A stretch of DNA of 64,000 nucleotides from Candidatus Undinarchaeales archaeon. GTDB taxonomy: Archaea > SpSt-1190 > JASMDC01. Position 1 is the first letter of the stretch, and the number at the start of each line of letters is the position of its first letter. Below the pieces are notes generated by a model. That model saw nothing but the letters and a program-made list of their open reading frames with translations, was not told the origin of the DNA and ran no database searches. The position numbers and the translations under genes were made by a program. Of the stretch, positions 32,969 to 60,025 are shown one piece after another. Location of the stretch: contig JASMDC010000004.1 in the NCBI GenBank assembly GCA_030753015.1, forward strand, positions 84,046-148,045. Reading direction: 5' to 3'.

Positions 32969-33283
32969 ATGACGCGTGAATGTCATCTCTTCTTTGAGAC
33001 CCTGGGCACAAAGGTGAAGCTCAACATCCTCACCACCCTGAGGGAAGGGCCGTTGAGCGTCAATGAGCTTTCAAGGGCCGTCAATCATGAAAGGAGCAAA
33101 GTCTCCCATGCACTACGCTCCCTTCATGACTGCCGCTTCGTCGTGGTCAGTAAGGATGGGAGGAGGAGAATCTACTCTCTGAACACGGACACGATCGTGC
33201 CGCTGCTCGACCTGGTCGAGAGGCACATGAACACCTATTGCATGGGCAAGGGCTGCAACAAACAGGCCCGCGGGGGTCGGTAG
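32969..33283 (+). CDS. ArsR-family transcriptional regulator
   Basis: A 104-residue winged-helix protein: FFETLGTKVKLNILTTLREG, then LSVNELSRAVNHERSKVSHALRSL (recognition helix) and a wing VVVSKDGRRRIYSLN. Cys residues at the N-terminus (RECHLF) and the end (YCMGKGCNKQ) could bind metal or sense redox state. The start ATG is the only one in frame after a TGA 18 bases upstream. It likely binds the palindrome at 32811 and controls itself and the hemerythrin gene. Confidence 0.88.
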   Translation: MTRECHLFFETLGTKVKLNILTTLREGPLSVNELSRAVNHERSKVSHALRSLHDCRFVVVSKDGRRRIYSLNTDTIVPLLDLVERHMNTYCMGKGCNKQARGGR

Positions 33284-55240: not shown

Positions 55241-55272
55241 TTTATATACTTGTTACTACTTTATAGTAGTGA
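55241..55272 (+). promoter_or_regulatory. TATA box plus TTACTAC/GTAGTGA palindrome before gene A
   Basis: TTTATATA (55241-55248), four bases, then TTACTACTTTATAGTAGTGA (55253-55272), which differs from the perfect palindrome at 57121 at two positions. The palindrome covers the expected start of transcription, a repressor position. One of three very similar promoter-operator units in 1.9 kb. Confidence 0.75.
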
Positions 55273-55283
55273 AGGTTCCCCCC

Positions 55284-56273
55284 ATGTACGATGCTGCTCC
55301 TGCACCGGACGCTGGCGATGCCTACACCGAGCGTGTGTACGGTCTGGTGCGCGACCTCGGGGTCAAGGATAAGGAGCTAGCGGACGACCTGGCCTACCTC
55401 CACAAGGACGGCCTGAAGCCCGAGGACCTCACGGAGCTCAAGGGCAGGGCCGACGGTTACCGCACTTTCTCCTCATACCTCAAGGACGATATCGAGGGCG
55501 ATATCACCGGCCTCATGGCAGATAAGAAGGCCGCCCGTGACAAGCAGTACGGTAGCCAGATGAGCAAAGACGAGATCAACGAGGCCTACGAGCTCATGTG
55601 TGATATCGACGGTGGTAACCGCACTCTCAAGCTCCATGAGTGGGAGCGAAAGGACGGTTCCAAGGGGTCCCGTCGAGGGTACACCGAGAACGCCATGCTC
55701 CGCTCACTGGGCTTCGATACATTCCAGAAGAAATTCGGTGAATCCTCACATCGCGACGACACTCTCACACGCATCGACGGATACCTTGACGAGCTTGACC
55801 GGTTCGAGATCCCCGCTCAGGGGCCTTCCTACTGGGAGCGCCTTGGCGAGTACGGGGAGAAGTTCCTCGATTGGGGCAAGGCCGCATACGAGACCGGTAA
55901 GGACATTGCCGTCAAAGGCTACCACGTCGCTGCCGACGGCCTAGAGAAGGGCTACGCGATCGCCAAGGACGCTGCCATCAAGGGCTACCATCTCGCGGGC
56001 GAAGGCCTCTCCAAAGGCTGGGAGGCTACGAAGCGGAGTGCCAAGGCCTTCGGTGAAGGTGTCGAGTCCACTATAGCTCGTATAGGTGCCTCCTACAAAA
56101 CGGACTCAGCCGCACGCGCCCGTGACCTTCTCGAGTACAACAAGACCATGGGCGAGGCCCGTGACTCACTCTTCATCGGTATACTCCAGAACAAGGCGAA
56201 GATGCAGTCCGAAGTGAACCGCATAGAGAAAGAGACCGGAGGAGCCATCGATAACCTATTCGCCTGGGCCTAG
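55284..56273 (+). CDS. Unknown protein A with C-terminal 66-residue shared module
   Basis: Not recognised; 329 residues, soluble, highly charged, no Cys cluster. Residues 1-170 are helical and acid-rich. Residues about 195-260 contain Gly-spaced amphipathic helices with a 22-residue tandem repeat (KDIAVKGYHVAADGLEKGYA, KDAAIKGYHLAGEGLSKGWE). Residues 264-329 form a module, IARIGASYKTDSAARARDL onward, that is 36/66 identical without gaps to the end of protein B. The ATG at 55284 is used because TATA and operator lie just upstream. A GTG at 55269 would be leaderless. Membrane-surface binding or a delivery tag are possible roles, both speculative. Confidence 0.8.
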   Translation: MYDAAPAPDAGDAYTERVYGLVRDLGVKDKELADDLAYLHKDGLKPEDLTELKGRADGYRTFSSYLKDDIEGDITGLMADKKAARDKQYGSQMSKDEINEAYELMCDIDGGNRTLKLHEWERKDGSKGSRRGYTENAMLRSLGFDTFQKKFGESSHRDDTLTRIDGYLDELDRFEIPAQGPSYWERLGEYGEKFLDWGKAAYETGKDIAVKGYHVAADGLEKGYAIAKDAAIKGYHLAGEGLSKGWEATKRSAKAFGEGVESTIARIGASYKTDSAARARDLLEYNKTMGEARDSLFIGILQNKAKMQSEVNRIEKETGGAIDNLFAWA

Positions 56274-56345
56274 GACCTCCAATCGCCCCCATCGGCCGGG
56301 AAATGCATCACCAGAACGAGCCATAGCGCACGAAAAAAGGAAATA

Positions 56346-56376
56346 TTTATATAGCTTCACCACTATATAGTAGTAA
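56346..56376 (+). promoter_or_regulatory. TATA box plus TCACCACTATATAGTAGTAA before gene B
   Basis: TTTATATA (56346-56353), three bases, then a 20-mer (56357-56376) two bases different from the perfect palindrome at 57121. The ATG of gene B is 12 bases further. The layout matches that at genes A and HAD. Confidence 0.75.
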
Positions 56377-56387
56377 ACTGGTGATGA

Positions 56388-56996
56388 ATGATGATCGAAG
56401 GTATTGACAAGGATGGCGGCGAGTGCAGGGCAATGGAGCTCTACACCGGCGGCAAGGACATAGCACCTTACGCCGAGGCCGGTCTTCCTGTTTCATATTC
56501 ACTCAACGGCAAGGAGCTCTCCCCCTACGCCAAGGGCGGCGAGCTGGTCCTGGCCGAGGACGGGAAGAGCGCACAGGGCTCCTACTCCGTTCCCTCCGGT
56601 TCTTACAGCGATAACGGGGCCGAGCTCAGCTACCTCTTGGCTGGCGAGAACCCCCACGAGGATAACCCCCAGGAGACCGCTGAGCGGAATGCGAAGCTCG
56701 GTAAGTACTGGGAAGGTGCCAAGGAGTTCGGAAAGGGTGCCCTCGACCTCGGTGGTCGCGCCGTCAAGGGCGTCGGCAACGCCATAGAGACTGGTATAGG
56801 TCGCATCGGCGGTTCCTACAAGACGGATTCCGCATCACGCGCTCAAGATCTCTACCAGACATCCAAGACACTCGGCGAGGCCCGAGACGTCTACTACCAG
56901 GGCATCCTCAAGAACAAAGCGCAGATGCAGGGATACATCAACCAGATAGAGGAGATCACCCCTAGCACCATGGAGCTCATGTTCGACTGGATGTAA
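56388..56996 (+). CDS. Unknown protein B with the same C-terminal module
   Basis: Not recognised; 202 residues, soluble. The N-terminal 90 residues have Tyr/Gly/Ser-rich strands (LYTGGKDIAPYAEAGLPVSY, SAQGSYSVPSGSYSDNG). A Gly-spaced amphipathic stretch (YWEGAKEFGKGALDLGGRAV, about 105-125) follows, then residues 137-202, IGRIGGSYKTDSASRAQDL through to LMFDWM, aligned without gaps to protein A. The N-terminal parts of A and B are unrelated, so the module is a mobile C-terminal domain, as in secreted effectors or tagged cargo. The start ATG at 56388 is one of two adjacent Met codons. Confidence 0.8.
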   Translation: MMIEGIDKDGGECRAMELYTGGKDIAPYAEAGLPVSYSLNGKELSPYAKGGELVLAEDGKSAQGSYSVPSGSYSDNGAELSYLLAGENPHEDNPQETAERNAKLGKYWEGAKEFGKGALDLGGRAVKGVGNAIETGIGRIGGSYKTDSASRAQDLYQTSKTLGEARDVYYQGILKNKAQMQGYINQIEEITPSTMELMFDWM

Positions 56997-57108
56997 GCAC
57001 GCTCATCCATCATAACAGATAGACAGAGGACCAAACCCCCGGCAACGGCTCCGGAGGCACAGGCCCCAAAGGCCTATTTATAAAGTGGACGTGTTTTTCA
57101 AGGAAACA

Positions 57109-57140
57109 TTTATATACAAGTTACTACTATATAGTAGTAA
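57109..57140 (+). promoter_or_regulatory. TATA box plus perfect palindrome TTACTACTATATAGTAGTAA
   Basis: TTTATATA (57109-57116), four bases, then a 20-bp perfect palindrome (57121-57140). The ATG of the HAD gene is 12 bases further. This is the most symmetrical member of the operator family and defines its consensus. Confidence 0.8.
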
Positions 57141-57151
57141 AGGACATACCG

Positions 57152-57889
57152 ATGGAATCGTACGCCTTGGTGTTGGACTGGGACCAGACGCTTTCTCCAG
57201 ACTACATGCAGGTGCCGCTCCTCAAGCATATGGGAAAAGAGCCCGCCCAGTACTGGAAGCAGGTCAAGGAGTACGATAAGAAGTACGCTCACGGGGAGTC
57301 GTTCCTTCGCGTGTTCCTGGAGGAGCCCGAGTACCAGGGAATGACCCGCAATGACCTCGAAGAGGCCGCCCAGAAAGTGCCTTACTTCGACGGTGTCAAC
57401 GACTTCTTCCGCGACCTCAAGGCCTATGCCAAGGAGAAGGACATCGACCTCAAGATCTATATCGCTTCCACCGGCCATAAAGAGATGGTGGAGGCGTCCG
57501 AGCTCGGCAAGTACTTCGATGGCGTCTATGGAGCCGAGTTCACCTACAAGGGTGACAAACCCGTTGACGTAGCCTCCGTCCTCCCTCCCGAGGACAAGCC
57601 CGACGCGCTCAAGGACATCAGCGTCAAGGAAGGCATCCCTCTCGACAACTTCATCTACTTCGGTGACGGTTTCTCCGACCTCCCCGCGTTCCACCTCGTG
57701 AACGAGCACGGGGGCGCATCTGTATGCGTTGGTGAGAAGGAGGAGTACGGACGCCAGGCCACCTACTGGGAAAAGCCCGATTACACGAAGCTCACAGGTC
57801 TCGTCAAGGAGATCATCGAGAGCGATGCGAGCTCAAGGAAGACCGCTGAGCCCCCACAGTCGCTGCCCGTCGGCTACTTCATGATGTAG
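57152..57889 (+). CDS. HAD-superfamily hydrolase (phosphatase type)
   Basis: A 245-residue HAD protein. Motif I is LVLDWDQTLSPD near residue 7 with both Asp residues, motif II is YIASTGH near 105, the Lys of motif III is probably in YKGDKP, and motif IV is YFGDGFSDLPAF near 168. A cap of about 80 residues between motifs I and II (TRNDLEEAAQKVPYFDGVND) resembles the cap of MtnX/SerB-like phosphatases. The substrate is unknown. It shares its promoter-operator with genes A and B, so it probably works with them. Confidence 0.85.
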   Translation: MESYALVLDWDQTLSPDYMQVPLLKHMGKEPAQYWKQVKEYDKKYAHGESFLRVFLEEPEYQGMTRNDLEEAAQKVPYFDGVNDFFRDLKAYAKEKDIDLKIYIASTGHKEMVEASELGKYFDGVYGAEFTYKGDKPVDVASVLPPEDKPDALKDISVKEGIPLDNFIYFGDGFSDLPAFHLVNEHGGASVCVGEKEEYGRQATYWEKPDYTKLTGLVKEIIESDASSRKTAEPPQSLPVGYFMM

Positions 57890-57973
57890 GAAGGTCTCGC
57901 CGGGACCCGGTTCATTCGATTCCCCGCGACGAAAGCAAACGTACTTAAGGCGGGATTCTGGCAGGGGATCGCT

Positions 57974-59011
57974 GTGCTCACAACTACCGACGGAGAGCAA
58001 GATCGCCCCTCCGCCAATCCCGTGCTCCCGAGCCTTGAGCCCGTCGTCCGGGATCTCCTGCACCTCTCTATCGACACGGATCGCATCCGCGAGGTGGCCC
58101 GTGGGCTCGACGATGAACAGCTCGGCACCCAGAAGGATGACTGGTGGCGGGGCCCGGTGTTCCTCGAGGAGGACTCGGAGCGCACTATCCAGTTCTTCAT
58201 GGTCGCCAACACGCTCAACTTCAAGTACTGGGACTCGGAGGACCCGAACAAGGTGTACGCCACGGAGTACAAGGGCACGACCTGGGACGGGGCCTACGGC
58301 ATGTTCGCCGCCCTGGTCCGAGCCCTAGATGAAGGACGGGACATCCTCGACGCCGAATACCTCGCCGGGCTCACCGACGAGGAGGCCGAGGACATCTTCC
58401 GCGGCACCGTCCCCATGCCCATGGTAAAGGAGCGCGCCGCCATCCTCCGGGAGACCGGCCAAGTGCTGCGGGACAAGTACCACGGCAGCTTCACCAACCT
58501 TATCGAACGATCCGGCCACCGTGCCTTCGATCAAGGGAACGGCATCGTGGACCGCCTTGCACGCGACTTTCCCTCCTACAGCGACACGAGCCTGTACGTG
58601 GACCGCGAAGTTGTATTCCACAAGCGAGCGCAGCTAGCTGTGGGCATGCTGTACAATCGTCTGAGGGACGGTGACTTGTTCAAGGTAGAGGACGTGGACG
58701 AGCTCACGGTATTCGCCGACTACCAGCTCCCCCGCGCACTGCGCTCCCTGGGCATTCTGAAGTACTCGGACGAGCTGGCCCAGAAGGTGGACGGGCGGGA
58801 GCTCATACCCCAGGACTCTCCCGAGGAGGTGGAGCTGCGGGCAGCCACGGTGTATGCTGCCGACCTGCTCCTGACGGAGGTCAACGCCGCCAGGGCTAAA
58901 GAGGGCAATGAGGCGGTGAGCGTGCTAAACATCGATTACTGTCTGTGGCTTGCTGGCCGGGACGCCCCAGAGGACCAGTACCACCACCTCACGGAGACCA
59001 CGGCGTACTAG
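57974..59011 (+). CDS. Queuosine salvage (DUF2419/Qng1-like) nucleotide N-glycosidase
   Basis: A 345-residue protein matching the DUF2419 family, which frees queuine from queuosine nucleotides so it can be put into tRNA. Conserved blocks visible: VANTLNFKYW near 77, YKGTTWDGAYGMFAALVRAL near 95, YHGSFTNLIERSG near 168, VVFHKRAQLAVGMLYNRL near 215, VFADYQLPRALRSLGILKYS near 243 (the Asp of FADY is a catalytic candidate), and VLNIDYCLWLAG at the end. Start GTG 57974 follows GGGGATC. A queuosine-salvage enzyme is unexpected in an archaeon, which normally makes archaeosine. Confidence 0.78.
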   Translation: MLTTTDGEQDRPSANPVLPSLEPVVRDLLHLSIDTDRIREVARGLDDEQLGTQKDDWWRGPVFLEEDSERTIQFFMVANTLNFKYWDSEDPNKVYATEYKGTTWDGAYGMFAALVRALDEGRDILDAEYLAGLTDEEAEDIFRGTVPMPMVKERAAILRETGQVLRDKYHGSFTNLIERSGHRAFDQGNGIVDRLARDFPSYSDTSLYVDREVVFHKRAQLAVGMLYNRLRDGDLFKVEDVDELTVFADYQLPRALRSLGILKYSDELAQKVDGRELIPQDSPEEVELRAATVYAADLLLTEVNAARAKEGNEAVSVLNIDYCLWLAGRDAPEDQYHHLTETTAY

Positions 59012-59048
59012 GGGATCGAATCCCTATAAAGTAAGCTCAGTAGATGGT

Positions 59049-59828
59049 CTACTCATCCTCAAGCACGTGGTTCGTGTTGACGTAGGTGCCCTTTTCCAGG
59101 TCCGCCTCGATCTCGATCCAGCCCGTCTCGTCCAGCCGGCAGGTGCCGTTCTCCATCACAACTGAGGACCCACCGTTCTCGGTGAGATACATTCCACCAG
59201 ATCTGTTACCCCCGTTGGCGAAGAGCACCATCTTGGTACCTGTCCTGCGCATGATTGTGCGGAGGTTCCCCTCGAAGAGGTCCGGTGAGTTGGGCCAGTA
59301 GGCCGGTACGAGCATGACATCGGGATTGAAGTCCGCCACCTCGCTGTAGAGCGACTTCTCACGCCCTTTGCGCATGATGTGGTTGGTCTCGATGCAAATC
59401 GGTGTCGAATAGCGCACGCCGTCGAGCTCCATCCCCCCGTCCCATTCTTCAGGGGCTTTGAACACCTTGGTCTCGTTGGAGCCGGTGTAGAGCTTGAACT
59501 TGTCGTGGTGCCAGACCTCTTCGCCATCCTTGATGCAGACCAGCGAGTTATAGAGCCCCTCGTCATCCTGACGCGCTGTCCCAAGGAAGAGCGTGAGGTT
59601 CTTCTCTCGTGAGATGTCATAGACCTCTTTCGGGACCGGAGCGTTCTTCTCGAAATAGGGTCGTGCTACTTCGGGCGAGCGCTCGAACACACCGTCCTCG
59701 TACTGCATCACGAGCTCAGGTGTGAGCACAACCGCATCGGTCGGGAACCGCTCATCGTAGAGGATGTCCATAAGCTCCTCTCGTTCCGTGCAGTTCACGA
59801 CGACGTACCGTTCCATCCGGTCAATCAT
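59049..59828 (-). CDS. Nitrilase-superfamily (carbon-nitrogen hydrolase-like) protein
   Basis: A 259-residue protein with the nitrilase catalytic triad: Glu in VLTPELVMQYE near 40, Lys in WHHDKFKLYTG near 110 and Cys in STPICIETN near 142. The surrounding segments, LFLGTARQDDEGLYNSLV and DVMLVPAYWP, fit the fold. The start is uncertain: the TATA-like GCTTAAGTATG at about 59845 makes the upstream ATG at 59843 unlikely, and ATG 59828 would be leaderless. Substrate class is not clear; an amidase or an inactive homologue are possible. Confidence 0.78.
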   Translation of the reverse strand: MIDRMERYVVVNCTEREELMDILYDERFPTDAVVLTPELVMQYEDGVFERSPEVARPYFEKNAPVPKEVYDISREKNLTLFLGTARQDDEGLYNSLVCIKDGEEVWHHDKFKLYTGSNETKVFKAPEEWDGGMELDGVRYSTPICIETNHIMRKGREKSLYSEVADFNPDVMLVPAYWPNSPDLFEGNLRTIMRRTGTKMVLFANGGNRSGGMYLTENGGSSVVMENGTCRLDETGWIEIEADLEKGTYVNTNHVLEDE

Positions 59829-59919
59829 GCCAAGAAATCCCATACTTAAGCCTTGCCTTTCGGCGTCGACGTTCGTACTGGAACAAGGACCACATCGACA
59901 CTCTCCTTTCTAAGAGCAT

Positions 59920-59997
59920 AAAAAACAGCCCCGCCCGGGAAGGCGGGGAAAGGGGATATCCCATGCGGGGAAGCATGGGAAGGGGGTACGGAACAAA
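59920..59997 (-). ncRNA. Candidate small RNA with two C-rich-loop hairpins
   Basis: Between PCMT and the nitrilase-like gene, the minus strand has its own promoter (60003-60025), a predicted start near 59997, hairpin one TCCCATGC-TTCCCC-GCATGGGA (59959-59980), hairpin two CCCCGCC-TTCCCG-GGCGGGG (59929-59948) and a T6 tail (59920-59925). The length would be about 78 bases. Both loops expose UUCCC, which is complementary to GGGA/GGAGG ribosome-binding sites, as in C-rich-loop regulatory RNAs. No protein reading frame of note is inside. The second hairpin could alternatively be a terminator for PCMT. Confidence 0.6.
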
Positions 59998-60002
59998 GTT
60001 GT

Positions 60003-60025
60003 CACTAGGGGGTAGTGTATATATA
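60003..60025 (-). promoter_or_regulatory. Small-RNA promoter with CACTA-5-TAGTG repeat
   Basis: Leftward TATA box TATATATA (60018-60025) is followed directly by the inverted repeat CACTACCCCCTAGTG (60003-60017). Half-sites resemble the ACTAC/GTAGT halves of the operators at 55253, 56357 and 57121, with a different centre. Membership of the same regulon is plausible but weaker than for the other three. Confidence 0.55.

Follow-up and report, generated by a model that had tools for sequence, protein, structure and literature searches.

Three consecutive genes on the plus strand of the window, the 64-kb stretch of DNA analyzed here (G000:C62:84046-148045), are each preceded by their own TATA box and a nearly identical 20-bp palindrome, which raises the question of what binds the palindrome and how many genes are controlled through it. 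The genes encode protein A (329 aa, 55284..56273), which is without a Pfam match, protein B (202 aa, 56388..56996), and a HAD-family hydrolase (245 aa, 57152..57889; PF12710 and PF00702). The TATA box of gene A, TTTATATA at 55241..55248 of the plus strand, is followed after 4 nt by the first, unstranded copy of the palindrome, TTACTACTTTATAGTAGTGA (55253..55272, matrix score 27.0). The same TATA sequence is located at 56346..56353 (+), 3 nt before the second copy, TCACCACTATATAGTAGTAA (56357..56376, score 24.9), and at 57109..57116 (+), 4 nt before the third copy, TTACTACTATATAGTAGTAA (57121..57140, score 28.7). Sequence comparison bears out the description in an earlier note on this DNA: the three units are present at 55241, 56346, and 57109, the third palindrome is perfect, and the other two differ from it at two positions each, a level at which zero matches are expected in shuffled sequences. 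The plus strand of the window contains only these three copies of TTTATATA, each positioned 3–4 nt 5′ of a palindrome. The gap between the palindrome and the ATG (55284, 56388, and 57152) is 11 nt in all three genes. Archaeal transcription starts approximately 25 nt 3′ of the TATA box. Because the ATG follows after 11 nt and the start is assumed at this distance, the palindromes in the window span roughly positions −20 to +1.

The earlier note also listed a looser fourth version of the motif at 60003, which is rejected here. In a scoring matrix derived from 63 sites, the 60003 version reaches −4.0 bits, which is chance level, whereas the weakest of the 63 sites scores 15.5 bits and the best chance matches in shuffled windows range from −2 to +8 bits. 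An Rfam search of the window, including the candidate small RNA at 60003, gave no family match. Tandem GC-rich hairpin-like repeats (CCCCGCC..GGCGGGG and CCCATGC..GCATGGG) occupy the intergenic segment 59918-59990, also without an Rfam match.

The assembly that contains the window consists of 117 contigs totaling 3.85 Mb, with a completeness of 98.9% and a contamination of 5.0%. Nine genomes of the same class measure 0.6–1.1 Mb, and the assembly is thus either an unusually large genome or a composite bin. It harbors 13 sites within three mismatches of the 20-mer, compared to none for reversed controls, and 17 sites within one mismatch of TNACTACTNNNNAGTAGTNA, compared to one control. The TATA-coupled pattern with three mismatches has 30 matches versus two controls, in a count where near-symmetric sites can be included on both strands. 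A TATA box lies 0–6 nt from the palindrome at 14 of the 17 inspected sites (background 12%), which is the placement at the BRE/TATA or start site of targets that characterizes a TrmB-type regulon. Some of the sites adjoin the TATA box on its 3′ side and others on its 5′ side, and nearly all 17 have a start codon within approximately 62 nt to one side. When the genome is searched for the 20-mer close to TATA boxes, as proposed in the earlier note, the sites are found at promoters, neither scattered at random nor in coding regions. The distribution of the promoter sites supports the idea put forward there that one repressor may control several separate transcripts; however, the regulon is not compact, as had been suggested, but comprises at least 14 loci dispersed over approximately 13 contigs. 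At least 14 scattered genes are probably shut off together by one TrmB-family repressor of the sugar-sensing type.

The target genes, which outside the window were called with a simple codon-score caller, are largely unrelated, and include those for a DnaJ-domain protein, HAD hydrolases, a metallophosphoesterase, kinase-like proteins, peptidases, and orphans. The DnaJ-domain protein is encoded on contig C33 and has a C-terminal domain in common with proteins A and B. Two orphans are located on C49, paralogous orphans on C41 and C57, an orphan with the sequence HELGH on C29, and an orphan with HEFAH, or a divergent aminotransferase-like gene, on C50. Contig C106 contributes an orphan (C106:33975) and an APH-kinase-like protein (C106:31617), and the two sites on C34 belong to a metallophosphoesterase and to an M28 peptidase or a divergent amidohydrolase-like gene. 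A lipid-kinase/DUF4135-like protein is present on C22, a xylose-isomerase-like TIM barrel on C95, a HAD hydrolase on C28, and a GATase with a divergent ArsR-like gene at C73:103339. A TldD-like protein (C95:6850) and tandem ParB-like paralogues (C117) were assigned by eye. Sugar-related targets are a GH15 trehalase-like gene and a glycosyltransferase-like gene after TrmB on C73; most of the others are not sugar genes. By-eye likeness of a C106 target (L034:8998-9906, 302 aa) to ADP-ribosyltransferases was discarded, as the protein has no Pfam match and no meaningful match in the PDB. AlphaFold predictions without alignment for protein A and the C106 target have a mean pLDDT of about 41, which is too low to interpret. 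A protein search in the named genomes found no relatives of the HAD protein.

A scan of 85,000 genomes for the TATA-coupled pattern returned 24 records, 15 of them archaeal, a proportion that is weak by itself because the TATA box favors archaea. Most of the archaeal records carry the labels Woesearchaeota, Aenigmatarchaeota, Nanoarchaeota, Micrarchaeota, or Jingweiarchaeum. The underlying 13 archaeal genomes, pre-selected for at least one site each, contain 51 sites with up to one mismatch, compared to three for controls. The genes 3′ of these sites include, by eye, metallophosphoesterase-like, kinase-like, and zinc-peptidase-like proteins. There is no general enrichment in 393 other archaeal genomes (six sites versus six controls), and nine genomes from the rest of the class do not exceed the control level (two versus two). 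Outside this genome, the motif turns up in a limited group of genomes, mostly DPANN, with several sites each, and is not general to archaea. A literature search on AGTAGTAA in archaea returned nothing relevant. Sixteen matches in viral contigs were set aside, as they are for the most part repeats within a small number of phage groups, with no evident archaeal link. Six phage contigs (L240-L244 and L246) have TATATT-N2-CTAACTACTAAATAGTAGTAAGGAG 5′ of one common phage gene; in these contigs the palindrome is located 5′ of a ribosome site of the bacterial type, and a relationship to the archaeal motif is improbable.

It is reasonably probable that the palindrome is bound by a dimer of a TrmB-family winged-helix regulator, which would switch dispersed single genes together. 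The palindrome contains TACT-N4-AGTA and TACT-N7-AGTA, and its inverted half-sites, TACT and AGTA, are identical to the published TrmB half-site. The sites are associated with TrmB genes both in this genome and elsewhere. A profile search identified 20 matches to PF01978 in the genome, six with E below 1e-15. Among these paralogues the most likely regulator is encoded outside the window, as the earlier note had anticipated, by the TrmB gene on C73 (G000:C73:10415-11191, minus strand; PF01978, E 9.9e-24). A copy of the operator is located in the intergenic region between this gene and the trehalase-like GH15 gene, 47–54 nt from both start codons (47 nt upstream of TrmB) and farther from a TATA box than the other sites of the genome. 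The promoters of the other TrmB genes of the genome lack the motif. In the 13 other archaeal genomes, 4 of the 51 sites are situated directly upstream of a divergent TrmB gene (G102:C8, G106:C22, G106:C123, and G110:C11). With 70 TrmB genes spread over about 13 Mb, approximately 0.5 such cases would be expected by our estimate. The promoters of 47 TrmB genes score above 73 neighboring promoters (Mann-Whitney p 6e-7), and a shuffle test gives 17/47 versus 5/73 (p 8e-5); the loci were not chosen for the motif, but the 13 genomes were chosen for containing it, and the test covered one HTH family, TrmB. Several of the enriched promoters belong to a conserved DPANN clade of TrmB proteins (LNLYEVKIWTALLSRG...VPRSRSYDVLESLEKKGF), which has two members in the genome studied here (C29:83172 and C50:29732), neither with a clear site of its own. 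The half-site, the C73 site, the four divergent neighbors, and the promoter enrichment therefore favor a TrmB-family regulator. The window itself encodes an ArsR-like HTH protein (104 aa, 32969-33283) with a weak match to the TrmB profile and no operator nearby.

The sites could also form a true operator regulon that is bound by a different winged-helix family, such as ArsR, MarR, or an archaeal orphan, in which case the association with TrmB would reflect generally similar regulators. An ArsR-like gene adjoins the C73:103339 site, possible HTH genes adjoin the sites at L074 (possibly wHTH) and L138, and genome G105 has three sites but no TrmB match at E 1e-8 in the 0.4 Mb covered. We consider this explanation unlikely, given the identity of the half-sites to published TrmB sites (PMC4158304), the five TrmB-adjoining sites, and the enrichment in TrmB promoters that were not picked for the motif.

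Parts of the locus have been duplicated, and the palindrome might have been copied along with gene cassettes, in which case it would mark a family of genes and not a regulon. The genome encodes the C-terminal domain exactly three times, in proteins A and B and the C33 DnaJ-domain protein, each time with the operator, and outside the genome there is one marginal match only (E 8e-4). Protein B and the C33 protein have 87% identity in this domain, and C33:1-127 (= L032:1-127) matches window positions 57014-57140, upstream of the HAD gene, at 88%; the C33 and HAD promoters are duplicates of one another. Because the cassette is partly duplicated, the operator copies at the three genes with this domain are not independent events. 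The copy at the start of C33 and the shared domain indicate a recent cassette duplication, perhaps the cause of the contig break. However, the genes that follow most of the other sites are unrelated, their loci showing no evident likeness apart from the TATA box and palindrome, and sites are present in distant archaea. Cassette copying, which appears largely refuted by these unrelated members, is thus very improbable. A perfect inverted repeat could also fold into an RNA hairpin acting in the 5′ leader in place of a DNA operator. However, the palindrome is located between the TATA box and the expected start, and would be mostly untranscribed, and other copies sit 5′ of the TATA box, which makes the hairpin the most remote of the explanations.

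If a TrmB-family dimer uses the 20-bp palindrome as its operator, as predicted, the protein bound 3–4 nt 3′ of the TATA boxes in the window would block the recruitment of RNA polymerase, whereas at other promoters of the genome, where the operator adjoins the upstream side of the TATA box, it would cover the BRE and block TFB. Repression is likely on either side of the TATA box in this genome, a direction suggested by occlusion, because the operators mostly adjoin the TATA box, and those upstream of it would cover the BRE. With a separate promoter and operator for each target, one regulator could switch many dispersed single genes together. The signal is probably a small ligand, which for known TrmBs is a sugar. 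In the other genomes, 36/51 sites are 0–6 nt from a TATA box (background 38%) and 26/51 are at 10–14 nt (background 28%), with little or no enrichment at 18–24 nt (17/51, background 29%). The typical layout of the second class is the palindrome, 12–13 nt, TATA box, approximately 22 nt, and ATG. According to the rule for TrmB and TrmBL1, a site downstream of BRE/TATA represses and one upstream activates (PMC4158304). The two position classes match the published rule, and by analogy the position 12–13 nt upstream may be activator-like.

The predicted system resembles TrmB of Pyrococcus furiosus and Thermococcus litoralis, which recognizes TACT-N3-AGTA at malE (PMC4158304), in combining a TACT/AGTA inverted repeat at BRE/TATA with a putative TrmB-family regulator, and in the proposed repression by blocking the transcription machinery. 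In contrast, the inner pair here is spaced by N4 within an extended conserved 20-bp operator, and the targets are mostly outside sugar transport. TrmB of Halobacterium salinarum (VNG1451C) binds TACT-N7-8-GAGTA and controls a global regulon with position-dependent activation and repression (PMC4158304). A global regulon, the TACT half-site, and position-dependent activation or repression are also predicted here; however, the extended palindrome is symmetric and lacks the GAGTA asymmetry, and the gene set differs. The Thermococcales glycolytic motif of TrmBL1/Tgr, TATCAC-N5-GTGATA, is likewise a single palindrome upstream or downstream of BRE/TATA across many promoters (PMC4158304), but its half-site sequence is unrelated, and it is not matched by the site consensus, TNACTACT-N4-AGTAGTNA.

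No regulon described for DPANN archaea was found in the literature searched, and a review of TrmB listed the copies of Nano-, Thaum-, and Korarchaeota as uncharacterized in 2014. It is conceivable, although doubtful, that DPANN-related archaea have redirected a TrmB-family regulator from sugar metabolism to dispersed orphan effector-like enzymes, possibly a toolkit for interaction with a partner or host. These would include kinases, proteases, phosphatases, and a DnaJ-domain protein, each with a TATA-coupled switch. The operator, candidate regulator, and list of targets provide a direct handle on co-switched genes, many of them of unknown function, and functionally linked unknown genes may be found through their promoters instead of their own sequences. 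Three archaeal genomes of about 1.5 Mb (G104, G106, and G110) encode 15–17 TrmB-family genes each, a notable expansion of the family.
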